DNA from: a virus
Virus record (IMG/VR): IMGVR_UViG_3300032087_003000
Coordinates: 1 to 30,212 of that record
Reading direction: 5' to 3' (one strand)
Length of the DNA: 30,212 nt
Notes under the pieces: model-generated
The model's input: only the letters and a program-made list of their open reading frames with translations
Database searches by the model: none
What the model was told of the DNA's origin: nothing
Shown: positions 4,625 to 29,265 of the stretch, piece by piece
Position numbering within the stretch: position 1 is the stretch's first letter
Layout of the letters: the number at the start of each line of letters is the position of its first letter
Position numbers and translations under genes: made by a program

Positions 4625-4635
4625 ATTATAACAAA
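4625..4635 (-). promoter_or_regulatory. Late-type promoter motif TTTGTTATAAT (tape measure block)
   Basis: Read leftward, the sequence is TTTGTTATAAT, an exact extended -10 (TGnTATAAT). It sits in the 25-bp gap before the tape measure block and is one of ten leftward copies in the window. Confidence 0.5.
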
Positions 4636-4646
4636 TTGTTTCGTAT

Positions 4647-5171
4647 CTATTGGTTATCTAATGTATCATCAATTATAGGTCCTAATAATTGTAATTTACA
4701 TTCACCTGTTTTTAAATTGTATTCATTGATTGCTCTTAAATGATAGTGATTACCTCTAAAGAATACTATATCATTTAAATTCATTTCTACATAATCAGCA
4801 AATGGAATAACTGCTGAACCTTCAATCAATCTTGTTTTTGGGTCATACAATAAACTTACATACTTACTCCAATATGTTGAGTAAATAGAATTAGTTGGTA
4901 ATGAACCTAAAGATGGTGTTTCATTATAAAATAAAAGTGAATCAGAATCAGATGCAGGAACTTCTTGTCCACTACCTGTTGAATAATGGTCAAAATAAGG
5001 ATAAACTGTTTTTCCATAAGTATTTGCACTAAAAGAAGATTGTTTACCACTAAAATTATATTGTGTTGTTTCTAACTGACCATTATAGAAGAATAAACGA
5101 GGTCTAACTTGAGCAGGGTCAAATTCCGCGTTTGCTATAAAGGTTGGTATCCACATTTTTTGTTTTGCCAT
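4647..5171 (-). CDS. Tail-tip protein, small C-terminal-type component
   Basis: A 174-residue beta-rich protein. The end (YVEMNLNDIVFFRGNHYHLR, then NLKTGECKLQLLGPII) resembles the C-terminal part of the large tail-tip proteins of Bacteroidetes phages. The beginning (MWIPTFIANAEFDPAQVRPR) looks like the start of that same domain. It follows the 692-residue tail-tip gene by 14 bases in the same direction, so the two probably act as one unit encoded by two genes. There is no enzyme motif. Confidence 0.6.
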   Translation of the reverse strand: MAKQKMWIPTFIANAEFDPAQVRPRLFFYNGQLETTQYNFSGKQSSFSANTYGKTVYPYFDHYSTGSGQEVPASDSDSLLFYNETPSLGSLPTNSIYSTYWSKYVSLLYDPKTRLIEGSAVIPFADYVEMNLNDIVFFRGNHYHLRAINEYNLKTGECKLQLLGPIIDDTLDNQ

Positions 5172-5185
5172 AATAATTTATTTTT

Positions 5186-7264
5186 TTAAGATGTTGGACC
5201 TCCTCCTCCACTACATGAACCAGGATTACTTATTAATTCACCTGTGAATGTATTAAATACATAGTAATCAGATGATAAGTTATGTTTAAAGTAGAAGTAT
5301 CCAATTACAGGATTGTTACCCAATGAATCATAATAAACAATATCACCAACACCAGGAGCAATTGGGTCAGAAGAATAAAAGGTTGTATATCCTGATGTAC
5401 ATACACCTGATATACTATTAGATACCGCTCCTTGAAATGCAGTTAATCTCGTTACTGCAGAACCCTCTACACCACTTCCAGCAACATATCTCAGAGGAGA
5501 TGTACCAAAACCACTCTTTACTTCTAACTTACCCTCAGAGAAGAAATTTTGAGTATCTCTAAAATAAGATTTACCATATTCTCTGTTATTTTCTTTATTA
5601 AAGTTTTGTGCTAAATAATCTAAATCAAGAGTATCACCAAACTCTACTTCTCTTACACCTAAGTTGTTTGCTGGAGTAACAGAAATTCTTTTATCCAAAT
5701 CCATGTATTTATCAAAGTTTTTAACCTTACCTTGTTTATACCAATTGTTAAATGTTTCAATAATAAAATGTCTTGGTTTAGTTTTACTTGGATATATTTG
5801 TAAATTAAATTTCTTTTGTATCGATGCAATAAAATCTAAACAAGTAATACCATTTGTACCATAAGGCATATTTGATGGAATATCTATTACAGATAATTCT
5901 CCAAGTTGATTTATTGTTTTTACTTTAAATCTTGATTCAGTATTACCCTCCGGTCCAAGAATAACTGATACTGTACCTGTTCCTTTTGTATCATAAGAAA
6001 TACCAAAGGTATAAGCTGAACCTGAATAAAATACTAAATTTGGAATTTCTTGTGTAAGAGTATATTCTTTATCTCCACTACCATTTAAAAAATCTTGTCT
6101 AATTACATCATTTATATAATCTAATGCGTATCCACCCATATCACCTGTATCTCTCCAAAAATACAATTCAGGATAAGCTGTATTAGTACCCGTTACTTTT
6201 AAATTTAATGTAATTTCTGCATCTGAGTTCGATGCTCCAACTTGTGAATCTCCCCAAAATGGAGTATAAGTTCCTAATGAATCTGTAATAGAAACAGATG
6301 GGTCATAATATACATTTGTAAAATCTAATGATTGAGTTGCTCCGTTAACAAGAGTTTGAGGAGTAGATGAACCACTAACAGGTCCAACTTCTATCTGTCC
6401 ATAAGTTTCTAAATCAACACCATTTATAATTGGATATGTTAAACCTCTATCACATAACATGAAACAATTATCAAATTTAGATTCTGATAGAAATGTTGAT
6501 TCATAGGTATATCCTAATGTATCAAAGATAGCATCTATAACTAAATCTAAACGGATTGCTGGTTTAAAGTTTTGTGGTCTAATTTCTCCACCTTCTGGTG
6601 TATTAAGTGCTCCTGTTCTATTATCTATACCAAACATATTTTTTGGTAGTTCTGATTGATAAGCTAATTGTTTACCACCATCGTTTAAACAATAAACAAT
6701 TTCTCCACCTAAATTATGACCATCTACTGATGAGGTAAAGATTGAATTTCCTGGCCATTCACTATTCGCTAGACCTGTATAAGATGAACCACTCCAAGAG
6801 TTTGCAATACAACCTGCAGAAAATACATGATTGTAATTTTCTAATTCAGATATCTCACCAAGTGTTATGTTTTGTAAATCTTTCTTAAATGAAGATAATA
6901 AACCATACAAAGAAACTTCGTAAGATTCAATATATTTGTTTTCTTTTAAATTAACTTTATCTAATTGGATATATCCTTGTGATACATAAAATCCATCTAA
7001 ATCAAACTGAGCAATTACCTTTTCGTTTGTTTTAAACAAATAAGGTTCATCAATTGATATATCATAAACATGCTGAAAGAATTCGTTGTTCTTCTTTGTA
7101 CCAGGTATTGTTAACTGACGAGTAAAATCAGAAGGTAATTTACCTATATCGAATAAACCTGTTACATTATTGGAAAGATAGATTGTTTCATCTTGAAATA
7201 AATCTAATTCTACACCTCTTGCAATAAGTTTAAATACCTTATCTCTTCCACTTGTAATTGCCAT
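5186..7264 (-). CDS. Large tail-tip / baseplate hub-type protein
   Basis: A 692-residue protein beginning MAITSGRDKVFKLIARGVEL, followed by YLSNNVTGLFDIGKLPSDFT and FTRQLTIPGTKKNNEFF. I recognise this N terminus from large tail proteins encoded just before the tape measure in Bacteroidetes siphoviruses. The middle is beta-rich and Gly/Ser/Thr-rich. A conserved-looking FDKYMDLDKRISVTPAN segment lies near residues 518-534. The end is a glycine-rich linker (SCSGGGGPTS) directly before the 174-residue partner gene. It probably forms the tail-tip ring with the 391-residue protein upstream. Confidence 0.65.
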   Translation of the reverse strand: MAITSGRDKVFKLIARGVELDLFQDETIYLSNNVTGLFDIGKLPSDFTRQLTIPGTKKNNEFFQHVYDISIDEPYLFKTNEKVIAQFDLDGFYVSQGYIQLDKVNLKENKYIESYEVSLYGLLSSFKKDLQNITLGEISELENYNHVFSAGCIANSWSGSSYTGLANSEWPGNSIFTSSVDGHNLGGEIVYCLNDGGKQLAYQSELPKNMFGIDNRTGALNTPEGGEIRPQNFKPAIRLDLVIDAIFDTLGYTYESTFLSESKFDNCFMLCDRGLTYPIINGVDLETYGQIEVGPVSGSSTPQTLVNGATQSLDFTNVYYDPSVSITDSLGTYTPFWGDSQVGASNSDAEITLNLKVTGTNTAYPELYFWRDTGDMGGYALDYINDVIRQDFLNGSGDKEYTLTQEIPNLVFYSGSAYTFGISYDTKGTGTVSVILGPEGNTESRFKVKTINQLGELSVIDIPSNMPYGTNGITCLDFIASIQKKFNLQIYPSKTKPRHFIIETFNNWYKQGKVKNFDKYMDLDKRISVTPANNLGVREVEFGDTLDLDYLAQNFNKENNREYGKSYFRDTQNFFSEGKLEVKSGFGTSPLRYVAGSGVEGSAVTRLTAFQGAVSNSISGVCTSGYTTFYSSDPIAPGVGDIVYYDSLGNNPVIGYFYFKHNLSSDYYVFNTFTGELISNPGSCSGGGGPTS

Positions 7265-7265
7265 A

Positions 7266-8441
7266 TTAGAAAATTAGTTTATATCCTTGTCCTTGTGTGA
7301 AATCAAATGAGTACTGAATTAGTTTATCTACAACATGAGTTTTAATATTAAATCTTGTACTATCAATTGATAACGGTCTTACTGATTCGTTTGTTTCATC
7401 ATATACCCAATATATTTCATCACTTACCATAAGTTGTTTAAATATATCGTTGTAATCCTCACTCACATAATCTGTATTCACTTGTAATCTTAAAGTGGAA
7501 TCAGTAATATAATTTTGTATAGAACTCTCGTAGGATTGATATGAGAGGGTTCTACTACTCCAAGAACCAATCTGTGGTTGATATCTACTTCTCTGTGTGT
7601 TAAATGTTTCAGTACTAACTAAATTAAAATTGAAATAATCGAACTGGCCGTATCTGTTTTTCCATTTAATTCTAACATTAGGATATTTCTTTGTACATTC
7701 ATAAGTAAATGTTATAGGAGAACCTAAATCAGTTACACCATTCTGTGCTTGTATTGTAAATGTACCATTAGAACCACTTAAAGGAAAATCACTTTCTTGA
7801 TTACCAATTGGAAAATCAGCAATCTGTGTTTGTGTTGTTCCTGTTGTAGTTGGTAAAGTATAATATCCTGTACCACTATCATCTACATACTTAATTCTAT
7901 CAGGTATAGTTTCTGCTCCATTACTTCCAATCCATACACCCATTCTACCACCATTAGAATCAAAATAAGATTGAGATACAGGTCCATCAGTCATGATAGG
8001 CCAGTAATCTGATTTATTTTGTATTTCTTGTGTGATTGTTTCTTGAAAAAGTGAATAACCATCAATAGCTTTGTAAGTAGAACTCTTTACATGAGAACCT
8101 GTAAAGAATGAACTTGATGGAGATGTTTTATATTGTACATAAGAATCGATTGCGAAGTATTTAACAGAAGAACTCTCTGCGGCCAATAAATCAGTAAAGG
8201 TAGAAGTTAAAACTCGTGATACATCAAATATACCGGTTTTAGATTCGTTAGGAAATTTTACTAATGTATAATCAGCTGAAGAACCGCTATTTGTTTCACT
8301 ACCTGAGAAGTAGTATAATTCTGCAACATATTGTACAGAAGATGAAGTTAGTACTTCTGCAGAAGATTCACTTACCGCAAATACAACTGGTGATTGCGAA
8401 AGTGATACATTTGCTGGATTTTGTATAATAGATATAGCCAT
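7266..8441 (-). CDS. Tail-tip / distal tail structural protein
   Basis: A 391-residue protein, Ser/Thr/Tyr rich and predicted mostly beta. The segment YECTKKYPNVRIKWKNRYGQ followed by FDYFNFNLVSTETF is a pattern I associate with tail proteins next to the tape measure block in Bacteroidetes phages. It is first in a three-gene tail-tip run (7266-8441, 5186-7264, 4647-5171) with only 1 and 14 bases between genes, behind a late-type promoter at 8456-8466. The exact position in the tail is inferred. Confidence 0.6.
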   Translation of the reverse strand: MAISIIQNPANVSLSQSPVVFAVSESSAEVLTSSSVQYVAELYYFSGSETNSGSSADYTLVKFPNESKTGIFDVSRVLTSTFTDLLAAESSSVKYFAIDSYVQYKTSPSSSFFTGSHVKSSTYKAIDGYSLFQETITQEIQNKSDYWPIMTDGPVSQSYFDSNGGRMGVWIGSNGAETIPDRIKYVDDSGTGYYTLPTTTGTTQTQIADFPIGNQESDFPLSGSNGTFTIQAQNGVTDLGSPITFTYECTKKYPNVRIKWKNRYGQFDYFNFNLVSTETFNTQRSRYQPQIGSWSSRTLSYQSYESSIQNYITDSTLRLQVNTDYVSEDYNDIFKQLMVSDEIYWVYDETNESVRPLSIDSTRFNIKTHVVDKLIQYSFDFTQGQGYKLIF

Positions 8442-8455
8442 CTAATCTTTTTTCT

Positions 8456-8466
8456 AATATAACAAA
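8456..8466 (-). promoter_or_regulatory. Late-type promoter motif TTTGTTATATT (tail-tip block)
   Basis: Leftward motif in the 46-bp gap before the tail-tip genes, 14 bases upstream of the ATG at 8441. It is one of ten copies. Confidence 0.5.
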
Positions 8467-8487
8467 AAAGAAATGGTATATATTGGA

Positions 8488-8901
8488 TTAAGATACTGTG
8501 AGGTTATCACCACCAGCTTTCCATATGTTATCTAAATTAGAAAAGATATCATCAAGAACCTCTGATGTTTTTGTATTCATAGCTTCATCTTTTGCTTTTA
8601 TGAACTCAGGTGAAGTTGCAGCAATCTGTGCAAATGGTCTAGCTTTCATATTACGAGTACCATAATGTACATACTTTGCATAATCAGGTAAATCGAAACT
8701 AAATCTAAATGTAATGTTACCTCTTGTATCTTCGGTAAACATTGTTTGTATTCTGTTTCTACTTGCTACTTCTTTAAATAATCTACCTGTTTTATAAGCT
8801 TTAGAAGAACCGGTCTTATATCCCTTATAAGGTACACCAGGATTGATTGCTCGTAGAGCTTGGTCTTTATATACTTTCGCTACATCTTTTAGTGTTTTCA
8901 T
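8488..8901 (-). CDS. HK97 gp10-like tail completion protein
   Basis: A 137-residue protein when started at ATG 8901, the codon 1 base after the upstream stop. An in-frame TTG at 8919 would add six residues but overlaps the upstream gene. The core DLPDYAKYVHYGTRNMKARP then FAQIA matches the YAxYVhyGTxxMxARPF pattern of the HK97 gp10 family, which joins tail to head. The N-terminal MKTLKDVAKVYKDQALRAIN helix is also typical. It follows the adhesin gene and precedes a promoter-bearing gap. Confidence 0.7.
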   Translation of the reverse strand: MKTLKDVAKVYKDQALRAINPGVPYKGYKTGSSKAYKTGRLFKEVASRNRIQTMFTEDTRGNITFRFSFDLPDYAKYVHYGTRNMKARPFAQIAATSPEFIKAKDEAMNTKTSEVLDDIFSNLDNIWKAGGDNLTVS

Positions 8902-8902
8902 A

Positions 8903-10252: not shown

Positions 10253-10253
10253 A

Positions 10254-11507: not shown

Positions 11508-11516
11508 AGTTTCTCT

Positions 11517-12428
11517 TTATGTATATTGCCACTTTCTAAGTGCATCATCTATTTTATCGTTATCCCATCGTTCTGGTGTTGTATCCCATACCTTTGGGTT
11601 TATCCATAAATTACAATTTTCACAAGTACCAAAATCCTCGTAAGGAATTGCTAAAACAGGTAAATTATAAAAATCATAATCATCTCTATCATTTATTTCT
11701 TCTAAGATTTCAAAACATCTTAAATTATCATAAGATGTTAAGTAACCTTGTTTTCTTGAATCAGGTACATATTTGGTTGCGAATATTTGTCCAACCGAAC
11801 CTGTAACTCCTAATTCTATTACAGCATTGTATTCATCATTTGTTTCGCAATCTTTTACTTTCCAATAACTACCCTCAGGTATTATCAAAAAAAAAAGACA
11901 ACGATTTTTATCATTGTGAACAGTCAAAGTAAATTCTGCTGACCATCCCACCAGCCCATTATTGAACCGGTCCGCAAAAGGTGTACAATTAATTGCTGAA
12001 TTAATCTCCATCCCATAATTACTCTTTTGAGTATATGCGGTTAAATCGTTTAAGATACTCAATGTGTTAGCATGAATATCAACAACATCATCAGTCCCAT
12101 CAAAAGGAACAATCTGTTTATTTTCTCTTTCATTTGGTGTATCATCATCTCTCATTAATTTTGATTTATCAGCAACTATTAGTTGTACTTGATATTCTGT
12201 TACTGTATTTCCAAAGTTTGCATTAGTAATTAACACATTACCAATAGGGTATTGTGGAAATTCAGTTGAATCAAAATTGTAGATATCTCCTTGTGTTACT
12301 TTAGCAATACTTGGATGATTCTTCATAATTGTTTTGAAGTAATTCAAAGTATTGTAGTAAAGTGAAAAGTTCTCAGCTGAGTTCTTTACAATTTGACTTC
12401 TACTTGGTGTGTATGATGGTGTACTCAT
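11517..12428 (-). CDS. Putative neck / tail terminator protein
   Basis: A 303-residue protein. The first half has a tail-terminator-like outline: an N-terminal helix (YYNTLNYFKTIMKNHPSIAK), a strand with PQYPIGNVLITNANFGNTVT, and helical ANTLSILNDLTAYTQ. The second half is an added domain with a Cys pair (CENC) and a Trp-rich end. In this kind of genome the slot after portal and connector usually holds neck and tail-completion proteins. Function is inferred mainly from position, and I cannot name the family. Confidence 0.5.
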   Translation of the reverse strand: MSTPSYTPSRSQIVKNSAENFSLYYNTLNYFKTIMKNHPSIAKVTQGDIYNFDSTEFPQYPIGNVLITNANFGNTVTEYQVQLIVADKSKLMRDDDTPNERENKQIVPFDGTDDVVDIHANTLSILNDLTAYTQKSNYGMEINSAINCTPFADRFNNGLVGWSAEFTLTVHNDKNRCLFFLIIPEGSYWKVKDCETNDEYNAVIELGVTGSVGQIFATKYVPDSRKQGYLTSYDNLRCFEILEEINDRDDYDFYNLPVLAIPYEDFGTCENCNLWINPKVWDTTPERWDNDKIDDALRKWQYT

Positions 12429-12434
12429 AATTTA

Positions 12435-14627: not shown

Positions 14628-14638
14628 TATATAACAAC
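14628..14638 (-). promoter_or_regulatory. Late-type promoter motif GTTGTTATATA (portal block)
   Basis: Leftward motif 15 bases upstream of the ATG at 14612 and just after a strong terminator. A TTG lies about 20 bp further upstream. It is one of ten copies, with G in place of the first T. Confidence 0.5.
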
Positions 14639-14673
14639 TAAACTTTAACTTATCATTATTCAAACATAGGCAC

Positions 14674-14701
14674 AAAAAAACCTCTCACGAAGAGAGGTTT
14701 T
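14674..14701 (-). terminator. Intrinsic terminator after the tail tube gene
   Basis: AAAACCTCTC (14677-14686) pairs over 10 bp with GAGAGGTTTT (14692-14701) around a 5-nt loop. In leftward reading the stem is followed by seven T (14680-14674). It lies 37 bases after the tail tube stop and before the portal block promoter. The stem also has T on the other side, so it may work in both directions. Confidence 0.9.
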
Positions 14702-14737
14702 CTTATATTATGCTCTTAGGACTCTACTAATTATCTC

Positions 14738-17080: not shown

Positions 17081-17091
17081 TATATAACAAG
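17081..17091 (-). promoter_or_regulatory. Late-type promoter motif CTTGTTATATA (scaffold/capsid block)
   Basis: Leftward motif in the 78-bp gap before the scaffold gene, 42 bases upstream of the ATG at 17038. It is one of ten copies, with C in place of the first T. Confidence 0.5.
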
Positions 17092-17116
17092 TTAATAGTT
17101 GTTTATAGTAATTTTT

Positions 17117-21097: not shown

Positions 21098-21109
21098 AAA
21101 GTTTTTATG

Positions 21110-21120
21110 TATATAACAAA
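21110..21120 (-). promoter_or_regulatory. Late-type promoter motif TTTGTTATATA (fibre block)
   Basis: Leftward motif in the 47-bp gap between the chaperone extension and the Cys-rich gene, 12 bases upstream of the ATG at 21097. It is one of ten copies. Confidence 0.5.
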
Positions 21121-21144
21121 AGAACCTACAATTATATTGGTTAT

Positions 21145-21932
21145 CTACTTCTTATACTTACTCATTGTAGCTCTGTGTATAGCTTGTTCCATTGTATTCT
21201 TATCTGCGAGGTAACATAAATACAACAAACACTCTTCTAAAGGTCTTGATGTTATTTCCTCGAATTTAGTGAGGTCATGGTTTGCGAGGATTGCAATTGA
21301 TTGATAACCTCTCCACTTGTGCGTAAAATTGACTTGATGTGTTGCGGCTGGTTGGGATTGGTCAATACCTCCTCCATCAAAGATTTCCGGATATCGTTCA
21401 ACAAGTCCAGATAGATACGATTGAAGAAAAAAAAACAACCAAAGTGAAAATCCATATTCACATCATACCATTTCTCTGAATCTATAACTTTATCTGCATT
21501 ATAATTTTCTATTTCATATAACACACCTTGTTTCTTCTTTACAGGTCTGTATAAGATAGAAAGTATCTTAGGCCAGTTCTTATCTAATGTAAGAGTTTCT
21601 ATTTTACTTATATCTAAATAAGCACCATAGGCCATTTGTGATAAGTTAGGTTCGAACCCATATTGTACATCATCTATGGTAATAAACTTTTGTAATTCGT
21701 AATCTGTTTTGTTAAGAAGTTTATATAAATCTTTTTTAATCTTCTCTACTGTTTCATTATCTAAAGCACGAGCAACCTCAGGTGTAATACCACATAAGTT
21801 ATAAAGTAAGAATGCATCTTGTGCTTGTGAATCATCACTATAACTTTCTAAATCATTTTGTATTGTAATGTATTTCCTAAGATTAATCGCTGAATAATCA
21901 GTAGGTACGGTTATCTTAACTTCTTTTTTCAT
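21145..21932 (-). CDS. Tail assembly chaperone, -1 frameshift extended form (G-T type)
   Basis: The 0-frame gene overlaps by 187 bases a second frame (open from a TTG at 21438, stop at 21145) that is one base back. They meet at nine T. Reading 168 codons of the 0 frame to base 21429, then slipping back one, gives join(21932-21429, 21429-21145), a 262-residue product. The added part has FTHKWRGYQSIAILANHDLT and FEEITSRPLEECLLYLCYLA, like the C-terminal halves of tail chaperones I know from Bacteroidetes phages. Phage G/GT chaperones commonly use such a shift. A sequencing error in the T run is the main alternative. Confidence 0.6.
21252..21932 (-). CDS. Tail assembly chaperone, 0-frame form (G type)
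   Basis: The 226-residue product begins MKKEVKITVPTDYSAINLRK and has the family outline NLCGITPEVARALDNETVEK, FITIDDVQYGFEPNLSQMAY and GAYLDISKIETL, ILSILYRPVKKKQG. These are features of tail assembly chaperones of Bacteroidetes phages. Such proteins hold the tape measure during tail assembly. After the slippery run (residues 167-170, four Phe) this frame continues for 56 residues that look less conserved. It lies next to the terminase genes, far from the tape measure, which is unusual. It starts with an ATGA overlap. Confidence 0.65.
   Translation of the reverse strand: MKKEVKITVPTDYSAINLRKYITIQNDLESYSDDSQAQDAFLLYNLCGITPEVARALDNETVEKIKKDLYKLLNKTDYELQKFITIDDVQYGFEPNLSQMAYGAYLDISKIETLTLDKNWPKILSILYRPVKKKQGVLYEIENYNADKVIDSEKWYDVNMDFHFGCFFFFNRIYLDLLNDIRKSLMEEVLTNPNQPQHIKSILRTSGEVINQLQSSQTMTSLNSRK
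21427..21435 (-). other. Slippery T9 run for -1 frameshifting
   Basis: Leftward the codons are GGT TGT TTT TTT TTC TTC. The run of nine T contains the heptamer T-TTT-TTT, a standard -1 slippery site. No stop codon follows at once in the 0 frame (stop at 21252), so both products can be made. Confidence 0.6.
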
Positions 21933-22276: not shown

Positions 22277-23433
22277 TATCTAAAACTTATTGTGTATTTT
22301 CCTTTGTTCTCTGCTTTTATAGATAACCTCATCATCGCAACATATCTTAATGAATCGATTAAGTGGTCTAATCCACCTTGTGGTTTGTCTAATTGTATTC
22401 CGTATTTATCTGTACTCCATTCGTATGCATATAATTCATTGATTAGATTCTGTGAACTTCTTTCTACACATAAACCATAATTCTGTAAAACACCGATACC
22501 AAACTTTATACTATCAGGTCCTTTCTTTACAGGCTTGATATTAAAACCACTTCTATAAATCTCTTCGATTAATCTTGGTTCTGCTGAATCAGCCCATATC
22601 TCTGTATTACCTACATTTAGTTTATCTAATCTATCTATAATATCTTTAGTTACTAAACCTGTTTCGTAAAGTAATTCTCTTAGATATAACATATCTCCTT
22701 TACGATGTACTGCAATTACCGCGGTTGGGTCATTCGAATATCCAAAGTCCATACCCAGAGCTACTAACTCTTCAACAGGAACTTCATCTACTATTTGGAA
22801 TGTAAAGATTGCTTTATCATTCGGAGCGTATTCACCTAAACCATAAATCTTCCAATACTTTGGATTCTTATCTTTAAGAGCTTCGATTTGTTTTACCATT
22901 TCTTTTGGAAGATATGGATTATCCTTGTAGGTTGTTACAAATCTATCACACTCTTCCATTTCTCTTAACCAATGGTATGGTGAAACCGTGGGGTTAAACG
23001 CAAGTATTATTTGACCTTGACATCTTATACTTAATTGAAAATAACTCTCCTCATCTATCTCTGATGCTTCATCAATAAAAAGTATATCTGATTTAACCCC
23101 ACGAAGTTTCTCCGGGTCATCTGTGTTTAGGAAACTTAATGTTGAACCATTACCAAATTGGTAAATTCTATCTGATATGTTATACGCTGTTGTATCCCAT
23201 ACTCCTAACTCTATCATAATATCCTTGAAATCCTTGATTACACTTCGTTTAAGAGAGGGAACGGTCTTTCTTACTATTGTGATATCATTTTTAGATTGTA
23301 ATCCTTGTACGATGAGATATTGAAGTATAGCATAAGTCTTACCACTTCTCGTACCTCCGATGTGTTGTGTAATCCTTTGTCTTGCATTCAAAAGATTATC
23401 AAATGTAATAGTTGTGTTAATTTCTACATTCAT
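22276..23433 (-). CDS. terL: Terminase large subunit
   Basis: A 385-residue packaging motor. The Walker A is GGTRSGKT (residues 26-33) and Walker B is ILFIDE (117-122). Nuclease-domain acidic residues are visible at D229 (GMDFGYSNDPT), D282 (IWADSAEP) and D356/D360 (LDHLIDSLRY). The layout is of the PBSX-type Terminase 3 group. It translocates DNA into the head through the portal and cuts it. It starts inside the last codons of TerS (4-base overlap). The size is slightly short but all core motifs are present. Confidence 0.95.
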   Translation of the reverse strand: MNVEINTTITFDNLLNARQRITQHIGGTRSGKTYAILQYLIVQGLQSKNDITIVRKTVPSLKRSVIKDFKDIMIELGVWDTTAYNISDRIYQFGNGSTLSFLNTDDPEKLRGVKSDILFIDEASEIDEESYFQLSIRCQGQIILAFNPTVSPYHWLREMEECDRFVTTYKDNPYLPKEMVKQIEALKDKNPKYWKIYGLGEYAPNDKAIFTFQIVDEVPVEELVALGMDFGYSNDPTAVIAVHRKGDMLYLRELLYETGLVTKDIIDRLDKLNVGNTEIWADSAEPRLIEEIYRSGFNIKPVKKGPDSIKFGIGVLQNYGLCVERSSQNLINELYAYEWSTDKYGIQLDKPQGGLDHLIDSLRYVAMMRLSIKAENKGKYTISFR

Positions 23434-23723
23434 TCTTCTGAACCACTTCTGTTTATGTTTACAGTAATCTGTTGTATTCTTTGTTCTATCTCACCTTTCA
23501 TTTCTATTCTTGCTTGTTTAGGTAAGTGGAACTCTAATAACTTCAATGCTATATCTACCGCACCTTTTGGGTCTTTCTTTACCAAATCATCCATTAACTT
23601 AGGTAAATCATCTAATACTCTATTTGTTGCACGAGCAACATTTAGTTTCATTTGTTCCGTTGAACGATTGATTGCTCCTTTAGGTCTACCTTTACTTAAT
23701 TTATTTCCTTTTTGGAATGGCAT
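23430..23723 (-). CDS. terS: Terminase small subunit candidate
   Basis: A 97-residue protein beginning FQKGNKLSKGRPKGAINRST, the N-terminal motif of the DUF5681-like small terminases, followed by a helical VARATNRVLDDLPKLMDDLV segment and a KKDPKGAVDIALKLLEFHLP helix. It is the first gene of the packaging block, overlapping terL by 4 bases. The promoter and first eight codons are duplicated at 24342-24397 (see findings). DNA recognition for packaging is the inferred role. Confidence 0.75.
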   Translation of the reverse strand: MPFQKGNKLSKGRPKGAINRSTEQMKLNVARATNRVLDDLPKLMDDLVKKDPKGAVDIALKLLEFHLPKQARIEMKGEIEQRIQQITVNINRSGSEE

Positions 23724-23754
23724 GTTTTCTTATGTTATTTTAACATTATAACAA
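23700..23754. repeat. 55-bp direct repeat, copy 1 (terS promoter and start)
   Basis: Contains the late-type promoter motif, leader and first codons of terS. The copy at 24342-24397 differs at only a few positions, with one extra base. The two copies flank the methyltransferase gene. Confidence 0.9.
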
Positions 23755-23755
23755 A
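23745..23755 (-). promoter_or_regulatory. Late-type promoter motif TTTGTTATAAT (terminase block)
   Basis: Leftward motif 21 bases upstream of the terS ATG. It also overlaps a Bacteroidetes-type -7 box (TATATTTG at 23752-23759 read leftward). It is one of ten copies, here with the exact TGTTATAAT. Confidence 0.55.
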
Positions 23756-23766
23756 TATATATATAA

Positions 23767-24267
23767 TTATATATCAAAGAATTGTAATTGTTTATCTAAT
23801 AATCCTTTACAAAACCATGCAACTCCAAAGTGTGGTGCACCTTTACCTGTAAAGTCTATTCTTTTGTTTAAAACTAATAATTCTAATCCATATTCATCAA
23901 ACCATTTACCTCTACGAATTCCTTGTATAGTTGATACTGGCAATAATAATCCAAAAGGTTTTTTTAAATCATAACATCTTTTAATAAACTTATCTTTCTT
24001 TGAATAAGGTGGATTGGTTAAGATTACATCACATTCAGGTATATCATCTTTAAGAAAATCTTTATTACCACTACTTAAACAAGTATATCCATTTTGATTT
24101 AAATAATCTACTATATTAGAACTAATACCACTTGTACAATCATAATAAATTTTATCTTTATCTAAATAAGGTATTATTGGTTCTAATGCGGTAGGTGGAG
24201 TGTAACATTCATCTGATTGAGAATTATTACCTGTCTTGTTTAACATTTTTAAATTAGATGATGCCAT
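23767..24267 (-). CDS. Orphan adenine-type DNA methyltransferase
   Basis: A 166-residue protein. SQSDECYTPPTALEPIIPYL is the N-terminal pattern of small phage DNA methyltransferases and TNPPYSK (residues 84-90) is the NPPY motif of N6-adenine/N4-cytosine enzymes. The AdoMet site is atypical: YYDCTSGIS (41-49) stands where a DPFxGxG motif is usual. With no restriction partner, its likely role is to modify phage DNA against host restriction, or regulation. It stands alone behind its own promoter (24388-24398), between two copies of a repeat, which looks like a recent insertion. Confidence 0.7.
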   Translation of the reverse strand: MASSNLKMLNKTGNNSQSDECYTPPTALEPIIPYLDKDKIYYDCTSGISSNIVDYLNQNGYTCLSSGNKDFLKDDIPECDVILTNPPYSKKDKFIKRCYDLKKPFGLLLPVSTIQGIRRGKWFDEYGLELLVLNKRIDFTGKGAPHFGVAWFCKGLLDKQLQFFDI

Positions 24268-24299
24268 AAATTTAATACTCTTACTCTACTTTTGTAGTG

Positions 24300-24347
24300 A
24301 AAGGGTTATCTATGTTGTGTTTTAAGATACCCTTTATTTTTTTTATT
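24300..24347 (+). terminator. Rightward-type terminator hairpin in the methyltransferase leader
   Basis: AAAGGGTTATCT (24300-24311) pairs with AGATACCCTTT (24325-24335) over 11 bp with one bulged T. Read rightward it is followed by a T-rich tract (24336-24347). No rightward gene is nearby. Read leftward it is a hairpin in the leader, overlapping the end of the 19-codon remnant and 32 bases before the methyltransferase ATG. Confidence 0.5.
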
Positions 24348-24365
24348 TCCTTTTTGGAATAGCAT
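24306..24365 (-). pseudogene. 19-codon remnant of the small terminase start
   Basis: MLFQKGNKKNKGYLKTQHR starts with ATG at 24365 and stops at 24306. Its first eight residues match the terS start (MPFQKGNK) with one change and the upstream 30 bases are nearly the same. It then diverges and stops, 38 bases before the methyltransferase. It is either a truncated duplicate left by an insertion or now a leader peptide. Confidence 0.6.
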
Positions 24366-24397
24366 GTTTTCTTATGTTATTTTTACATATATAACAA
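24342..24397. repeat. 55-bp direct repeat, copy 2
   Basis: Near-identical to 23700-23754 (about 51 of 56 positions by eye). It carries its own late-type promoter motif and the start of the terS remnant. Confidence 0.9.
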
Positions 24398-24398
24398 G
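24388..24398 (-). promoter_or_regulatory. Late-type promoter motif CTTGTTATATA (methyltransferase)
   Basis: Leftward motif at the outer edge of repeat copy 2, preceded by an AT dyad GTGATAT (24416-24422) / ATATCAC (24436-24442) about 20-45 bp upstream. It is one of ten copies. Confidence 0.5.
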
Positions 24399-24431
24399 GA
24401 TATATATGTATGTATGTGATATTATATATAT

Positions 24432-24743
24432 TTATATATCACCATACTCTTCTTCCATTTTTCGTTGAATATGTACTGGTACAATATCCCATACAAACTT
24501 TTGATAATCAGAATCAGGTTTTAACATTAAATCTCCCATTTCTTTTAGATATTCTCTCCATTGTTTATATCCTTCTTCTATATACCATTGTTTTAAATGT
24601 TTTGGTTGTTTAGTAGTTGGTGAAAGCCAATGAAGTAATCTTTCATCGTATTTAGCTTGTATTTGTTTTTTCTGATTGTGGAAGTTATTGTAGTTCTCGT
24701 TATCTAAGAGTTCTTGTAGATTGTTAATCGATGGTCTGTTCAT
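24432..24743 (-). CDS. Hypothetical protein after the sigma-like gene
   Basis: A 103-residue product when started at ATG 24743. A TTG two codons earlier is less likely. The start overlaps the end of the sigma-like gene by 20 bases. The sequence is helical and charged (NNLQELLDNENYNNFHNQKK, then EEGYKQWREYLKEMGDLM). It has several Trp residues and no known motif. It is the last gene of the early operon, and the stop lies in the AT dyad upstream of the methyltransferase promoter. Confidence 0.6.
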   Translation of the reverse strand: MNRPSINNLQELLDNENYNNFHNQKKQIQAKYDERLLHWLSPTTKQPKHLKQWYIEEGYKQWREYLKEMGDLMLKPDSDYQKFVWDIVPVHIQRKMEEEYGDI

Positions 24744-25293
24744 TATCAAATGGATTATCTATTATTGTTTTTAAATGTTCTTTTATCTTTTTAATATTAA
24801 GAAAGGTTGTACTTTTAGAAATACCGATGTTGTTAGAGAGTTCTTCCATTGTCATTTCACTAAATGCATACAATTCATATAACTTAGCAGAACTCCACAT
24901 ACGAGTTTTCTCTAATCTTTTTAATTCTCCTTTAAGATTATCATATGCATTTTGTATTCTAACATCTGAATCTATATCGTATGGTTTATCTTCTTTATCT
25001 TTCCAACGAGTGGGATAGTTGTTCTTACTTTCTCTTTTTATCCAATTTATATAACGAGAACTTAGGAAATTATGGCAATATAATAAATTAAAAGAATCTC
25101 TATAAAATAATTTTGGATTACACTTCTCACCTAAATACACATACAAATCTTGTACTAAATCTTGTGCAAGTTGTACATCTTTGGTTTTGTTATAAGAACA
25201 AGCCATCAACCACTCATGATGTTTTGTATGAAGAACACCTAATCTTTTAGTGTTTTCTGATTTGATATTTTCTATTGAACCACTAACTAACAT
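24724..25293 (-). CDS. Sigma-70-family-like transcription factor
   Basis: A 189-residue protein of the size of small ECF-type sigma factors. DVQLAQDLVQDLYVYLGEKC (residues 39-58) resembles sigma region 2 (AEDLxQDxFxxL). The C-terminal part (WSSAKLYELYAFSEMTMEEL, then SNNIGISKSTTFLNIKKIKEHLK, about 133-175) has the helix-turn-helix of region 4. Such genes occur in several Bacteroidetes phages. It could redirect host RNA polymerase to the TTTGTTATAWW promoters. It might instead be a DNA-binding packaging factor with a similar fold. It sits late in the operon driven by the early promoter at 28105-28135. Confidence 0.6.
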   Translation of the reverse strand: MLVSGSIENIKSENTKRLGVLHTKHHEWLMACSYNKTKDVQLAQDLVQDLYVYLGEKCNPKLFYRDSFNLLYCHNFLSSRYINWIKRESKNNYPTRWKDKEDKPYDIDSDVRIQNAYDNLKGELKRLEKTRMWSSAKLYELYAFSEMTMEELSNNIGISKSTTFLNIKKIKEHLKTIIDNPFDNEQTID

Positions 25294-25492
25294 ACTCTCT
25301 TATCGCATCTACAGCTTTTTTCCAATGTTTACCAGCAGAACCACAAGTACATGGTTGTTTTTCTGATGAACCTGTAATATTTTTATATGTAGACCATACC
25401 CATGATGCTAAATCATTTGGTATATGAGTATTTATTCTTTCTAAATTTTTGTTAATTTGTTCTAATTCTTCTTTAGTAAATTTTGATTCCAT
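25283..25492 (-). CDS. Small conserved Cys-motif protein
   Basis: A 69-residue protein: a helical N terminus (EELEQINKNLERINTHIPND), then WVWSTYKNITGSSEKQPCTC and GSAGKHWKKAVDAIREYV. The CTCGSAGKHWKKAVD motif with a paired Cys is one I recognise from small proteins in Bacteroidetes phages. Possibly metal-binding; function unknown. It overlaps the preceding gene by 20 bases and the sigma-like gene by 11. Confidence 0.6.
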   Translation of the reverse strand: MESKFTKEELEQINKNLERINTHIPNDLASWVWSTYKNITGSSEKQPCTCGSAGKHWKKAVDAIREYVS

Positions 25493-25667
25493 CTTCTTCC
25501 TTACAAGTTAATTGATTAAGCCATATTCTTCTTTCCTCACATCCACATGATTCATATCCAAGTTTTCTTGCAATAAACATTGCTATATCTTTTCCATTAC
25601 CAAGTGTGATGATTGTTATGATTGCTTCTACTATATCACCAAGTTTTATGTAACAACCTAATTTCAT
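25473..25667 (-). CDS. Small conserved protein with CGC motif
   Basis: A 64-residue protein: MKLGCYIKLGDIVEAIITII, then a hydrophobic/basic stretch (MFIARKLGYESCGCEERRIW) and LNQLT. The SCGCEERRxxLN motif recurs in small proteins of Bacteroidetes phages. The N-terminal part may associate with the membrane. The start overlaps the previous stop (ATGA). It pairs with the CTCGS protein that follows it, which suggests a joint role. Confidence 0.6.
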   Translation of the reverse strand: MKLGCYIKLGDIVEAIITIITLGNGKDIAMFIARKLGYESCGCEERRIWLNQLTCKEEDGIKIY

Positions 25668-25855
25668 AGTTTATCTGCGAGTTCTTCTAATTCTTCTAAA
25701 GGTAATGGTAAATCTTCTATCTGTAAATTATAAGGTTTACCACTATTTAATAAATGTAGATGTAAATCAGCTTTCTTCCAAATCTGATAATATCTCGTGC
25801 CTTCTAACTCTATTAAATAAATATTAGGTTTTATTTCTTTATGTATTTTTATCAT
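25664..25855 (-). CDS. Hypothetical small protein
   Basis: A 63-residue protein: a beta-like N terminus (MIKIHKEIKPNIYLIELEGT, RYYQIWKKADLHLHLLNSGK) and an acidic Leu-rich end (PLPLEELEELADKL). No family is recognised. It is translationally coupled by 4-base overlaps to both neighbours in the early operon. Confidence 0.55.
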   Translation of the reverse strand: MIKIHKEIKPNIYLIELEGTRYYQIWKKADLHLHLLNSGKPYNLQIEDLPLPLEELEELADKL

Positions 25856-26523
25856 TGGTTTGTATATTTTTTAAAAAATTCATTAGGTGTAATTAAATCA
25901 AGTAAATGTTTTTTATTATTCTGAAAATATTCCCAATCTAAACAATTTTCTAAAGTATGAATAGATTGATTAATTCCTTCACTTTTACCTCTTCTTACAA
26001 CACCAACTCCATAATCAGTATCAACAACAGAAGCTTCTAATTTATTTTCCCATCTTAATCTAATAATAGATTTCCAAACATCACCATTCCAAGCAACTGC
26101 TTGTCTTGGTACTAACTGAGATTCATAACTTACAGGATTACAATCGTGTAATAAGATGAAACCACCTTCTCTAAGGTGTTTTAATGAGTTCTGTATATCG
26201 ATATCTACTTGGTCGGAGTGATGTAACCCATCAATAAAAATAATATCGTAGAACTTATCTTTTGTTTCTTCTAATTTAAAGAAATCATCTGATGTCATTT
26301 CATAATTTATTTCAGGACATCTAACATTTGGTTCAACCACCGGGTCAACCGCATCTTTATTCTGAGCTTTTACATTTCTGATACAAGTACCAAATGCAAC
26401 TCCAATTTCTAAATAATCTTTAAAATTATATTCATCTATTAAAAAGTTAATAAGATTAAATCTTTTAAAGTTCGAACTTTCTTGTTCAATAACTAACGGG
26501 TCTTGTGTATTATCTAATATCAT
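25852..26523 (-). CDS. Class I SAM-dependent methyltransferase (Methyltransf_24-like)
   Basis: A 223-residue protein with the AdoMet motif YLEIGVAFGT (37-46) and the FIDGLHHSDQVDIDIQNSLK motif (96-115) followed by LREGGFILLHDCNP, as in the Methyltransf_24 family. Members usually modify sugars or small molecules and are often found beside glycosyltransferases. None is here, so the substrate is unknown. A host surface sugar or a phage-induced metabolite is possible. It overlaps both neighbours by 4 bases. Confidence 0.75.
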   Translation of the reverse strand: MILDNTQDPLVIEQESSNFKRFNLINFLIDEYNFKDYLEIGVAFGTCIRNVKAQNKDAVDPVVEPNVRCPEINYEMTSDDFFKLEETKDKFYDIIFIDGLHHSDQVDIDIQNSLKHLREGGFILLHDCNPVSYESQLVPRQAVAWNGDVWKSIIRLRWENKLEASVVDTDYGVGVVRRGKSEGINQSIHTLENCLDWEYFQNNKKHLLDLITPNEFFKKYTNQ

Positions 26524-27110
26524 TTTACTATTGTTTTTTGATACCTATGTGGTATTTTTGTGTTTAATAATGTATGTCCTCTATCTTTTAATCTCAATAT
26601 CCAATCTGCTTCTAATCTGTATTGTTTAGTTTTACCACCAACACATTCATCAATAATGACTGTATTTTCAATAATGTGTTTTCTAATATCTTCTATATCA
26701 TCAAACTCATCAAACTTTGCGTGTAGTTTAGGAATAACACGAGATTGTTTTGAATATCCTTCCTTTACTCTTCTATAATCAGCCACATGTCTTGCTAATC
26801 TAATATTAAGGTGAGCCTTTGTAGAACCAATATAGATAGAACCATCATCAAAAGGTATCATGTAAATTTTAATTGTTTTATCTGCTAACTGATATAAGGA
26901 AATGTATTTCCAAGTTTCTTTATCTTTAAAGTAACCTGTTTCATAAGAATAATAATCAGGTTGTATTTGTGTTCTAAACTTTCTGTTATCTTTTGAATTA
27001 CATTCCTTACACTTAGGCTGTAATCCATCTTTTCTACTTCTACATTTAGAATATTCTTCAGGTTGTTTTAGTTTACCACAACCATTACATATTTTTTCTT
27101 TATATACCAT
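26520..27110 (-). CDS. GIY-YIG endonuclease with N-terminal zinc finger
   Basis: 196 residues from ATG 27110, just after the upstream stop. A TTG at 27125 would add five residues and overlap. Cys8, Cys11, Cys34 and Cys37 form a zinc-binding CxxC-x22-CxxC unit. The nuclease core has KIYMI (81-85) and IYIGST (92-97), a basic RLARHVADYRR helix, and a C-terminal RLEADWIL segment whose Glu fits the metal-binding glutamate. Free-standing homing nucleases with this layout occur in phages. It sits within the early operon. Confidence 0.75.
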   Translation of the reverse strand: MVYKEKICNGCGKLKQPEEYSKCRSRKDGLQPKCKECNSKDNRKFRTQIQPDYYSYETGYFKDKETWKYISLYQLADKTIKIYMIPFDDGSIYIGSTKAHLNIRLARHVADYRRVKEGYSKQSRVIPKLHAKFDEFDDIEDIRKHIIENTVIIDECVGGKTKQYRLEADWILRLKDRGHTLLNTKIPHRYQKTIVK

Positions 27111-27114
27111 AGTT

Positions 27115-27360
27115 TTATCCGTCAAATGTTAATATTTCATATCTTTCTGTTAGAATTTCTAATAACCACTCCCATTCCTCAATCTTATCATCTAACATTT
27201 TATAATCTTTTAGAGCCTGTGGGTCTTGTAGAACATAATAGGTAGGATTTTCTTCTATTATCTTTTGAGTTTTCTCATATTCCTTTATCTGATGTTTAAC
27301 TAAGTTTATTAACTTGTTATAATCAATAAAAGATTCATTGGGTGCGAAGCTGCCTAACAT
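27115..27360 (-). CDS. Hypothetical helical protein
   Basis: 81 residues from ATG 27360 (MLGSFAPNESFIDYNKLINL), mainly helical and charged (QIKEYEKTQKIIEENPTYYV, KMLDDKIEEWEWLLEILTER). A longer frame is open from 27447, but it would overlap most of the 48-codon gene at 27335-27481. The shorter start overlaps that gene by only 26 bases, like other joints in this operon. Function unknown. Confidence 0.5.
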   Translation of the reverse strand: MLGSFAPNESFIDYNKLINLVKHQIKEYEKTQKIIEENPTYYVLQDPQALKDYKMLDDKIEEWEWLLEILTERYEILTFDG

Positions 27361-27481
27361 ATTCTGCAAGTGTTTTGTATCTGTTGTACGCATAATCATC
27401 TTCACCAGATTGGTATAATCTAAGATTTGCTTCCATTTCTTCTTCATACATTCTAATTAATTCTTCTCTTGTTTTAGGCAT
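27335..27481 (-). CDS. Small hypothetical protein (48 residues)
   Basis: Starts with ATG at 27481, inside the end of the coiled-coil gene, and stops with TGA at 27335-27337. The product (MPKTREELIRMYEEEMEANL, RLYQSGEDDYAYNRYKTLAE, YVRQLRTQ) is a charged helical peptide with a typical protein composition. The only rival is the N-terminal part of a longer frame from 27447. No function is known. Confidence 0.5.
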   Translation of the reverse strand: MPKTREELIRMYEEEMEANLRLYQSGEDDYAYNRYKTLAEYVRQLRTQ

Positions 27482-27633
27482 TTTATATAATTTACTATTG
27501 TTTCTACTTGATATTCTAATTTATCTACTCTTTTTGTTAACCTTTCTAATGCTGATGAATACTCTAGCTTTCTTGATTCAATTCTAAGTTCATCTATTAC
27601 ATCTTGTAATCTTTTAATCTCCTGCTCTTTCAT
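27457..27633 (-). CDS. Small coiled-coil protein
   Basis: 58 residues from ATG 27633, whose first base is the last base of the preceding stop (TAATG). The whole chain is a Leu/Ile/Glu/Lys heptad pattern (EIKRLQDVIDELRIESRKLE, LERLTKRVDKLEYQVETIVN). It probably makes a dimer or trimer bundle. It overlaps the 48-codon gene by 25 bases. Confidence 0.6.
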   Translation of the reverse strand: MKEQEIKRLQDVIDELRIESRKLEYSSALERLTKRVDKLEYQVETIVNYIKCLKQEKN

Positions 27634-28085
27634 TATCCAAGATTCTTACCAATGTTTCTAAAAGCCTGTTCTTTTAGATTTGCGATAACTGTTGGAGGTG
27701 GAATACCTTCATCACCTCTCTGATTAAATGCTAATTTAGTATAGTGTTCTTTTCTTAAAGAATAAAAAACATTGTATAAATCTCTATTCTGATAATCTCT
27801 CATCATATCTTGTAACTTTTTAAGAAACACATCTATTTTTTCTGTATTACTTGGTAATGCTTCGTTACCAATTGAAGCATATCTATCCCCTAAACTGATT
27901 AACTTTACCAAATATTCTTTATGAATATATGCTTTGCTATCAGGTGATATGTTCAATGGTTCAAGAGTAGATAATTCTCTTATATAATCCCATATTACTT
28001 CTTTATAATTTTTTCTTGCTTGTTCATCTGTTATAGGTTTTTTATCTAAAACATCTAAACAAACATTTAATACTTTTAAGTTCAT
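27633..28085 (-). CDS. Hypothetical protein, first gene of the early operon
   Basis: A 150-residue helical protein (MNLKVLNVCLDVLDKKPITD, ARKNYKEVIWDYIRELSTLE, YIHKEYLVKLISLGDRYASI). There is no recognised family. It is the first gene behind the early-type promoter at 28105-28135, 20 bases from that element's -7 box. The product may act early, and its place ahead of the sigma-like gene fits early take-over functions. Confidence 0.6.
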   Translation of the reverse strand: MNLKVLNVCLDVLDKKPITDEQARKNYKEVIWDYIRELSTLEPLNISPDSKAYIHKEYLVKLISLGDRYASIGNEALPSNTEKIDVFLKKLQDMMRDYQNRDLYNVFYSLRKEHYTKLAFNQRGDEGIPPPTVIANLKEQAFRNIGKNLG

Positions 28086-28104
28086 AATGAATAATTTATT
28101 TTTA

Positions 28105-28135
28105 CAAATATACGAAAAATATTTTAAATATACAA
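28105..28135 (-). promoter_or_regulatory. Early-type promoter, TTG-N20-TATATTTG
   Basis: Leftward: TTG (28135-28133), a 20-nt spacer, then TATATTTG (28112-28105), an exact Bacteroidetes -7 box. The last 11 bases of the spacer (ending TTTTTCG) match the three rightward copies at 29226, 29314 and 29728. It drives the operon from 28085 to 24432. Confidence 0.65.
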
Positions 28136-28160
28136 GCTTTTTAACTTTTATTTTTTTAGT

Positions 28161-28498
28161 AGAGATTGAAACGAAACCTTAAAGGGTTTCGTTCTCTCAT
28201 CTCATAAACTATCAGATACAGTTCCACTATTAGCGAAACTTGCGTTTTACTTTTTTACACCATTTTTCAGTAGAAACTAACTAACACACAACAAAATTTC
28301 TACCTATCTGTATTTTTATGAGTTCAGTTCTTGTATAAAGGTCTAGTCTATCTGTCGATGAGTGTTGAACCTTTTGGCATTCTATTCCACCACTAACACA
28401 AGATATAGTTCTCAGTAGATTAAGTATTTCTTGGAATAATCTACAATTCTGATAGTTTATGGTTTGTTCGAGTTTTTATGCTGGTCCCACCAGTTTTT
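28161..28498. ncRNA. Large structured RNA element candidate
   Basis: A 14-bp helix joins CATAAACTATCAGA (28203-28216) to TCTGATAGTTTATG (28448-28461). Inside it are TACAG/CTGTA (28217-28221 / 28308-28312), GTAGAAA/TTTCTAC (28270-28276 / 28297-28303), AAAGGT/ACCTTT (28337-28342 / 28369-28374) and GTAGATTA/TAATCTAC (28415-28422 / 28437-28444). A bipartite hairpin precedes it (28161-28197). It ends in CTGGT-CCC-ACCAG and five T (28481-28498). The T tract and wobble pairs favour the rightward strand, while the only clear promoter (28535-28545) points leftward. Confidence 0.5.
28481..28498 (+). terminator. Short hairpin with T tract closing the structured element
   Basis: CTGGT / ACCAG, 5 bp around CCC, then five T when read rightward. 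It would end a rightward transcript of the structured element. Confidence 0.5.
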
Positions 28499-28534
28499 AA
28501 ATAATAAGTTTAAGTTTTACTACCTTTATATATA

Positions 28535-28545
28535 AATATAACAAA
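28535..28545 (-). promoter_or_regulatory. Late-type promoter motif TTTGTTATATT before the structured element
   Basis: Leftward motif with no protein gene for 450 bases downstream. A transcript would run through the structured element toward 28085. Just downstream it would contain AAAGGTAGTAAAA (28527-28515), complementary to two sites in the neighbouring terminator loop. Confidence 0.45.
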
Positions 28546-28580
28546 GTTTTCCAAAACAACAAAAATATAGAAAAAAAGTG

Positions 28581-28638
28581 AAAAAAAAGGCCATCTCGTA
28601 ACGGTAGTAAAAATGAAAGGTAGTGTTGAGATGGCCTT
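28581..28638 (-). terminator. Strong intrinsic terminator with 30-nt loop
   Basis: AAGGCCATCTC (28587-28597) pairs perfectly over 11 bp with GAGATGGCCTT (28628-28638). Leftward it is followed by T8 (28588-28581). It ends the gene at 28712 and the small RNA. The loop is unusually long. Confidence 0.85.
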
Positions 28639-28692
28639 ATATATAATTGTAAGGAAATCAAATAGGATGGCTCATCCTGATTTTGACCTGTG
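28581..28692 (-). ncRNA. Small RNA candidate with own promoter and terminator
   Basis: From the motif at 28697-28707, a leftward RNA of about 100 nt would carry a hairpin (AGGATG 28664-28669 / CATCCT 28673-28678, extended by TCAAA/TTTGA at 28658-28662 and 28682-28686), then the terminator at 28581-28638. No frame of usable length lies between. The 30-nt terminator loop holds two copies of ACTACC, complementary to the start of the next leftward transcript. Confidence 0.5.
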
Positions 28693-28696
28693 TATA

Positions 28697-28707
28697 TATA
28701 TAACAAA
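28697..28707 (-). promoter_or_regulatory. Late-type promoter motif TTTGTTATATA (small RNA)
   Basis: Leftward motif directly after the stop of the nucleotidyltransferase-like gene (28712-28714), with no protein gene before the terminator. It is one of ten copies. Confidence 0.5.
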
Positions 28708-28711
28708 CGAA

Positions 28712-29218
28712 CTAAAATTTATTTAATGATATACCTGTAAAATTATACCCTCTTTCTCTACCTTTATACCAATTGTGGTAAGGTTTATTAAAAGTAAACT
28801 TATAAAGGTGTTCACCAAGTTGTTCTACCTCATCAGCCTTATATTGTGGATTATATATACCACCATGTAATTCTTTATAAAATTCTTTATCAGGTCTTAT
28901 CTTATAAAATGGTTTCCAATCTTTATCATACCATTCTGAAACATAAGCACAATCTATTAATAATTTATGCTCAAATCCTTTTTGTATCATTTCACTAAAC
29001 ATATCGGATAAATCATTTAGAGAGGTTTTAAGAGGTGTTTGATATAAAATGATATCTACATCCCATGTGGGTGAGAACTCCTCTATAACATTACCACAAA
29101 CCCACCAGTCGTTCAAATCAAAAGATAATTTATCTCTCCATTGTTTGATAGTATCTTTATCTGGCCTATTCCACGGTGTATGTGTAGTAACTCCACCATA
29201 TCTTGTAAAAAAGTTCAT
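28712..29218 (-). CDS. Putative nucleotidyltransferase (Pol-beta-like)
   Basis: A 168-residue protein. VCGNVIEEFSPTWDVDIIL fits the hG[GS]x(9-13)Dh[DE]h signature, with Asn where Gly/Ser is usual: Gly42, Asp53 and Asp55. A third acidic residue, Asp89 in KLLIDCAYVSEWY, fits the usual third carboxylate. If real it would transfer a nucleotide to RNA, protein or a small molecule. It stands alone between the promoter at 29255-29265 and the terminator at 28581-28638, although the small RNA promoter follows at once. The assignment rests on a short motif. Confidence 0.45.
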   Translation of the reverse strand: MNFFTRYGGVTTHTPWNRPDKDTIKQWRDKLSFDLNDWWVCGNVIEEFSPTWDVDIILYQTPLKTSLNDLSDMFSEMIQKGFEHKLLIDCAYVSEWYDKDWKPFYKIRPDKEFYKELHGGIYNPQYKADEVEQLGEHLYKFTFNKPYHNWYKGRERGYNFTGISLNKF

Positions 29219-29225
29219 AAAATAT

Positions 29226-29256
29226 TTGGATAATTCAAATTATTTTTGTATATTAG
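29226..29256 (+). promoter_or_regulatory. Early-type promoter, TTG-N20-TATATTAG (copy A)
   Basis: TTG at 29226-29228, 20-nt spacer, TATATTAG at 29249-29256. The spacer is a diverged version of the one at 29317-29336. Its -7 box touches the leftward late-type motif at 29255-29265. Confidence 0.55.
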
Positions 29257-29265
29257 TATAACAAA
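29255..29265 (-). promoter_or_regulatory. Late-type promoter motif TTTGTTATACT (nucleotidyltransferase gene)
   Basis: Leftward motif 36 bases upstream of the ATG at 29218. It overlaps the -7 box of the rightward early promoter, so the two cannot be occupied together. Confidence 0.45.

Follow-up and report, generated by a model that had tools for sequence, protein, structure and literature searches.

What transcribes the virion genes of a phage in which nearly every leftward gene block is headed by the same short motif? The window, meaning the whole 30,212-base virus record analyzed here, carries the terminase, portal, and other virion genes on its minus strand, and the original prediction proposed that ten leftward copies of TTTGTTATAWW, lying between these genes, make up a phage-specific class of late promoters. 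The first and last 91 bases of the window are identical, so the genome is circular or terminally redundant, with a length of ~30.1 kb. The nearest large-terminase matches are from Flavobacterium phages (40%), the nearest capsid matches are from Nonlabens phages (28%), and the early region has promoters bearing the -7 box of Bacteroidota, TAnnTTTG; because of these three features, the host is probably a member of the Bacteroidota, likely of the Flavobacteriia. TAnnTTTG is the Bacteroidota promoter consensus, the primary sigma factor reading TTTG/TAnnTTTG (PMC6847099).

Comparisons were made with 80 relatives collected via the capsid protein and 80 via the sigma protein, using mechanical gene calls; one entry, L001, is a fragment identical to the window. 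Among cultured phages, there was no close DNA match to the window and none to its sigma factor, a tblastn search of phage records with the window sigma factor returned nothing at E 0.01, and a host search through bacterial homologs found no relative of this protein in GTDB contigs. Two entries, L016 and L024, are parts of one 62.6-kb contig with capsid and sigma modules from related phages, two of each, which could represent tandem phages or an assembly artefact. Within the window, the overlapping frames 21145-21438 and 21252-21932 are typical of a tail-assembly-chaperone frameshift.

Motif copies in the viral genome

All ten copies are present at their predicted positions, leftward and with the predicted core. 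The exact word TTTGTTATAWW occurs six times leftward and never rightward in the window, and the reversed control is absent. An excess over shuffled sequence, proposed as a check in the original prediction, is weak for the single box with two mismatches (195 matches against 177 expected) and holds for a two-box position weight matrix (PWM) built from 35 sites of relatives, with the window and L001 left out. Above a PWM score of 12, there are nine leftward matches and one rightward match, against 0.9 in a shuffled genome with both strands taken together; the nine leftward matches include eight of the ten predicted copies, each scoring above 13.

The sites are described here as upstream box / core, and all are on the minus strand. 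Ahead of the scaffold and capsid genes, at what we call joint A, stands ACTATA / TTGTTATAT (17081-17112, PWM 24.6), and joint B, which is kept in relatives, holds ATGATA / TTGTTATAT (14628-14659, PWM 25.5) just after an intrinsic terminator at 14671-14707. The combination AATATA / TTGTTATAT is found at 8456-8487 (PWM 24.0) and again at 21110-21141 (PWM 18.9). TATATA / TTGTTATAA (23745-23776, PWM 14.1) precedes the terminase genes, the putative small-subunit gene at 23430-23723 and that of the large subunit, while CATACA / TTGTTATAT (24388-24419, PWM 22.2) precedes a remnant duplicate of the start of gene 23430-23723 and a methyltransferase-like gene. These last two copies belong to one duplication and are not independent; at 23724-24431, the start of gene 23430-23723 has been duplicated along with its promoter, and only a remnant is left of the second copy (about 24330-24400). 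CATATA / TTGTTATAC (29255-29286, PWM 14.7) lies before gene 28712-29218, and TAAATA / TTGTTATAT (28697-28728, PWM 13.5) lies before a probable non-coding RNA.

The copy at 4625-4656, with a weak or shifted upstream box (CCAATA / TTGTTATAA), scores low in the PWM (8.7), yet it stands at a joint conserved across many relatives; it was accepted because many of them hold a TGTT site, usually in their own variant, 10-12 nt upstream of a shared, conserved ORF of 44 aa. The copy at 28535-28545 scores below 7, has the hexamer TTTGTT in place of the upstream box, and was rejected as a member of the class, so that nine of the ten copies can be retained as one class. Two matches had not been listed before. 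The site at 2898-2929 (GGTATA / TTGTTAAAT) is a good one, 12 nt ahead of the start codon (ATG) of gene 1680-2894; in the relatives G007 and G010, this gene has its promoter at the same 12-nt distance. The site at 29573-29604 (AACATA / TTGTTATAT, PWM 17.7) is doubtful and lies antisense inside the rightward ORF 29380-29715.

Two-box architecture and predicted start site

When the sites are anchored on TGTT, a second conserved block appears at -20 to -15 relative to its T. Since the first alignment had picked sites by score, the box test was repeated with sites chosen by TGTTATA only: of 127 such sites that are sense and intergenic, 57 have AHTAYW starting at -20, no other offset has it in more than 9, and among 362 genic or antisense control sites it occurs in 9. 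In the window, this upstream box can be recognized in every copy but 28535, with a shifted position in 4625, and the earlier statement that no conserved -33 box accompanies the motif was therefore wrong. The accompanying description as an extended -10 element survives for two copies, which do match TGnTATAAT, but the promoter consists of two boxes rather than an isolated extended -10.

Downstream of the core, the strongest column is found 12 nt after the T of TGTT, where A has a frequency of 0.72 and A or G of 0.89; of the leftward window copies, only the doubtful 29573 departs from this A, having G instead. This conserved A is probably the transcription start, which would place initiation 5-6 nt past TATA, within the 5-8 nt range given by the original prediction. 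Relative to the predicted start, the promoter, as read from these alignments, is AHTAYW at about -32 to -27, a fixed 13-nt gap, and TTGTTATA at about -13 to -6. At 2898 and 4625, the predicted start coincides with the A of the ATG (2894 and 4621, the latter opening the 44-aa ORF), implying that these mRNAs would be leaderless.

Conservation across relatives

A strand test free of any motif assumption, performed on 576 intergenic stretches, returned TGTTATA as the top 7-mer, with 90 sense and 13 antisense occurrences. Close relatives share the motif: at corresponding joints between their genes, TTGTTATAWW lies on the coding strand, with diverged flanks. Across 242 kb of close relatives, of which 6.6% is intergenic, the two-box PWM detected 61 strong sites, 59 sense intergenic, two sense genic, and none antisense, in a count where part of the sites had also trained the matrix. 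A fixed-word count over all capsid relatives was discarded; it gave little strand excess, with the 3′ half of the motif variable between lineages. The confinement to coding strands, intergenic DNA, and shared joints, together with the dissimilarity to the early host-type promoters, supports the proposed phage-specific late class, and the motif is best regarded as a real two-part promoter heading the late (virion) genes, the designation as late following gene content. At L005:6246-6267, as well as in L006, L007, and L013, a palindromic pair TATATAACAATTTGTTATATT lies before the scaffold gene and may represent two diverging promoters or an operator.

In distant relatives, TGTT is fixed at the same joints and the next bases are ATA, ATT, AAA, TTT, or AGA. 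We compared two unrelated joints, A (before the scaffold gene) and B (after the gene behind capsid), in 40 dereplicated genomes by a permutation test that leaves shared ancestry in. Agreement between the joints in the five bases after TGTT was 0.785 against 0.559 in permuted data, a level reached in none of 20,000 permutations, and agreement in the upstream box was 0.714 against 0.647 (p 0.0005). The spacer gave no excess (0.338 against 0.335), which argues that joints A and B are not recent copies of each other. The joint B site of L069 was read three bases off; its correct AAA agrees with joint A, making the test slightly conservative there.

The capsid tree implies at least two origins each for the TT and the AA variant and one for AG, and a change at one joint is nearly always matched at the other. 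One dinucleotide class accounts for all sites in 23 of the 27 genomes with a sigma gene and at least two sites, and the other four have mixed variants; in whole contigs, TGTTTTTA is present at 6/6 sites of G010 and TGTTATTA at 5/5 sites of G007. A single trans-acting reader would make unlinked sites change in concert in this way, and the pattern points to a reader that co-evolves with its promoters.

A phage-encoded sigma factor

The proposed reader is an ECF-type sigma factor of 189 aa encoded at 24724-25293 on the minus strand. It matches phrog_1740 (E=1.9e-6), as do 12/12 of its aligned relatives, and its modest Pfam ECF score of 17.8 bits falls below the curated cut-off of 21.1. Among the 12 relatives, at E 0.01, Sigma70_ECF is matched by 5/12 and Sigma70_r2 by 6/12, and Sigma70_r4 is also reached. 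The AlphaFold2 model (pLDDT 84.8) comprises two helical domains and was matched to SigH, SigL, and RpoE. Individually, the sigma4 domain aligns with 2h27 (Z 9.3, rmsd 3.0 over 71 residues) and the sigma2 domain with 5uxx (Z 9.0, rmsd 2.7 over 83); a VIA-align superposition on the SigH/SigL complexes gave Z 9.8 with an rmsd of about 16 over both domains, the relative domain placing being unreliable. The modeled protein thus has sigma2 and sigma4 without sigma3, the composition of ECF sigma factors (group IV), and the two-box promoter with fixed spacing that goes with such factors is present, to be read, we infer, by the window sigma.

The gene is syntenic: relatives with DNA extending to this region have its homolog just ahead of the terminase block, and it is found in 8/8 long relative contigs (G005-G012). 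In the window, it belongs to a leftward block that starts behind a host-type promoter at 28105-28118 (-; -7 box TATATTTG), so that the host enzyme can make the sigma factor early. Two further host-type promoters are rightward, TTTTCGTATATTTA at 29331-29344 before ORF 29380-29715 and TTTTCGTATATTAG at 29745-29758 before the rightward early genes. Counted window-wide, TAnnTTTG is at chance level, and one such match overlaps the 23745 copy by chance; the element that the late sites share is another sequence. By association of gene and motif, the late promoters are most likely read by the phage's own sigma factor. A search for sigma2 residues tracking the -10 variant gave none that was convincing among the sigma sequences compared; the best-tracking residue, 163, is in region 4 and probably reflects a clade effect.

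Alternative explanations

Might these sites instead be host promoters, their TGnTATAAT an extended -10 that the primary or an alternative host sigma factor recognizes? The two copies that match this word, and the resemblance of TATAWW to a -10 box, speak for such a reading. The Bacteroidota primary sigma factor, however, reads a different sequence (PMC6847099), and promoters of that kind do occur in the early region; moreover, relatives exchange TATA for TTTTA, AAATA, or AGATA while keeping TGTT, which a sigma70-type -10 would not tolerate, and AHTAYW at -32 to -27 differs from TTGACA. We regard recognition by a host sigma factor as improbable.

Only marginally better placed, and still unlikely, is a phage activator or repressor other than a sigma factor, perhaps another DNA-binding protein conserved in the group, that binds the motif and acts together with the host holoenzyme. 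A lineage-specific preference could belong to any trans-acting factor, and some joints (L005 to L007) carry the palindromic pair. Against a regulator of this kind, no host -7 box is found at a fixed distance downstream of the motif, the element itself is built like a promoter, its two boxes at a constant distance and a purine conserved 12 nt further along, and the sigma gene is always there where the DNA reaches its place. The near-chance single-box counts could also suggest a compositional feature of AT-rich intergenic DNA, but the complete lack of antisense matches in close relatives, the fixed spacing, and the conservation of joints leave a chance origin next to no credence. We therefore favor a two-box late promoter read by a phage sigma factor.

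Probable non-coding RNA units

The promoter at 28697-28728 would produce a probable non-coding RNA of ~113 nt (28581-28693, -) ending in a terminator hairpin (GGCCATCTC...GAGATGGCC) followed by T8. Relatives have a comparable promoter-RNA-terminator unit at a corresponding position, with an RNA sequence unlike that of the window. This conserved ~105-nt unit, located upstream of the sigma gene, comprises a phage-type promoter, an invariant GCTATTCAGCATT between paired arms, and an intrinsic terminator, often followed by a host-type promoter; it is found at L170:12836-12969 (+) and L176:4045-4178 (-) and in L180, L181, L182, L187, L188, L190, L124, and L149. An alignment of ten sequences revealed compensatory change in 4 of 11 predicted pairs. 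Rfam returned no accepted family for either the window non-coding region or the relatives' unit.

A model for late transcription

Taken as a whole, these data favor, with a probability of roughly 0.85, a two-box late promoter read by a phage sigma factor that replaces the host sigma factor, the early genes being transcribed by the host. The motif, its two boxes at fixed spacing, its strand bias and conserved joints, the sigma gene, and the concordance of sites within a genome are seen in the sequences; the start site, the timing, and the link to the sigma factor are deduced from them. In this model, host polymerase would transcribe the early genes, the sigma block included, from TAnnTTTG promoters of the Bacteroidota type. 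The phage sigma factor would then displace the host sigma factor on the host polymerase, its region 4 contacting the upstream box and its region 2 contacting TGTTATA, and the leftward virion genes would be switched on block by block.

A broader reading, to which we assign even odds, is that these phages form an undescribed, widespread Bacteroidota lineage in which the sigma factor has switched its -10 preference on several occasions, each time along with all promoters of the genome, to yield a natural set of mutually distinct sigma-promoter pairs; late mRNA would be partly leaderless (2894 and 4621 in the window and most late joints of Nonlabens phage P12024S), starting at the A of the ATG.

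Late gene control in Bacteroidota phages has hardly been described; in literature from which subscription papers were mostly outside coverage, no account turned up of a Bacteroidota phage sigma factor together with the promoters it reads. The proposed system predicts every late start site, and phages P12024S and P12024L with their host strain IMCC12024 constitute a cultured test pair. Dozens of natural promoter variants with accompanying sigma sequences could reveal how ECF sigma factors change their -10 specificity, and the sigma-promoter pairs may serve as orthogonal parts for expression in Bacteroidota.

Comparison with known systems

The nearest cultured kin by capsid (28% identity) are the Nonlabens phages P12024S and P12024L. 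P12024S gp33, encoded just before the terminase genes, has sigma70 region 2 and is a profile relative of the window sigma factor (hhalign E 1.2e-6). The joints of both phages share a CGTTA(A/C) site; in place of the window TGTTATA they have CGTTAATA, with an upstream AAAACAAA-like run. In P12024S (L161), CGTTA lies 11-12 nt upstream of seven of the 59 annotated starts, at 179, 3031, 5412, 21280, 23961, 25201, and 26802, where 0.36 would be expected, and each of the seven stands behind a AAAACAAA-like run. Initiation 12 nt after the first CGTTA base would fall on the A of the ATG, the geometry seen at 2898 and 4625 in the window, and these seven sites are probable leaderless late promoters.

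In phage T4, late transcription depends on gp55, a phage sigma factor acting on host polymerase at promoters with an AT-rich -10 element, the -35 element being absent. The proposed system is alike in pairing a phage sigma factor with host polymerase, in its AT-rich -10, and in serving late genes; it differs from the gp55 type in that T4 late promoters have a -10 only, whereas the window has an upstream box and a sigma region-4 domain. Promoters for the Bacteroidota primary sigma factor occur in the same genomes before early genes, and their -10 and upstream sequences are unlike the late element. Escherichia phage phiEco32 and Salmonella phage 7-11 encode an ECF-type sigma factor, and their structural genes are preceded by a common motif (PMC4331800, PMC7881722). 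The window resembles them in its phage ECF-type sigma factor, in host promoters before the early genes, and in one shared intergenic motif before the structural genes. Their motif is a single -10-like TAATGTATA, whereas that of the window has two boxes with fixed spacing; their hosts are enterobacteria and that of the window is probably a Bacteroidota member, and genome size and gene content differ. The closest precedent is coliphage phiEco32, from which the system proposed here is set apart by the absence of close kin among deposited phages, by a host from another phylum, and by its two-box promoter.
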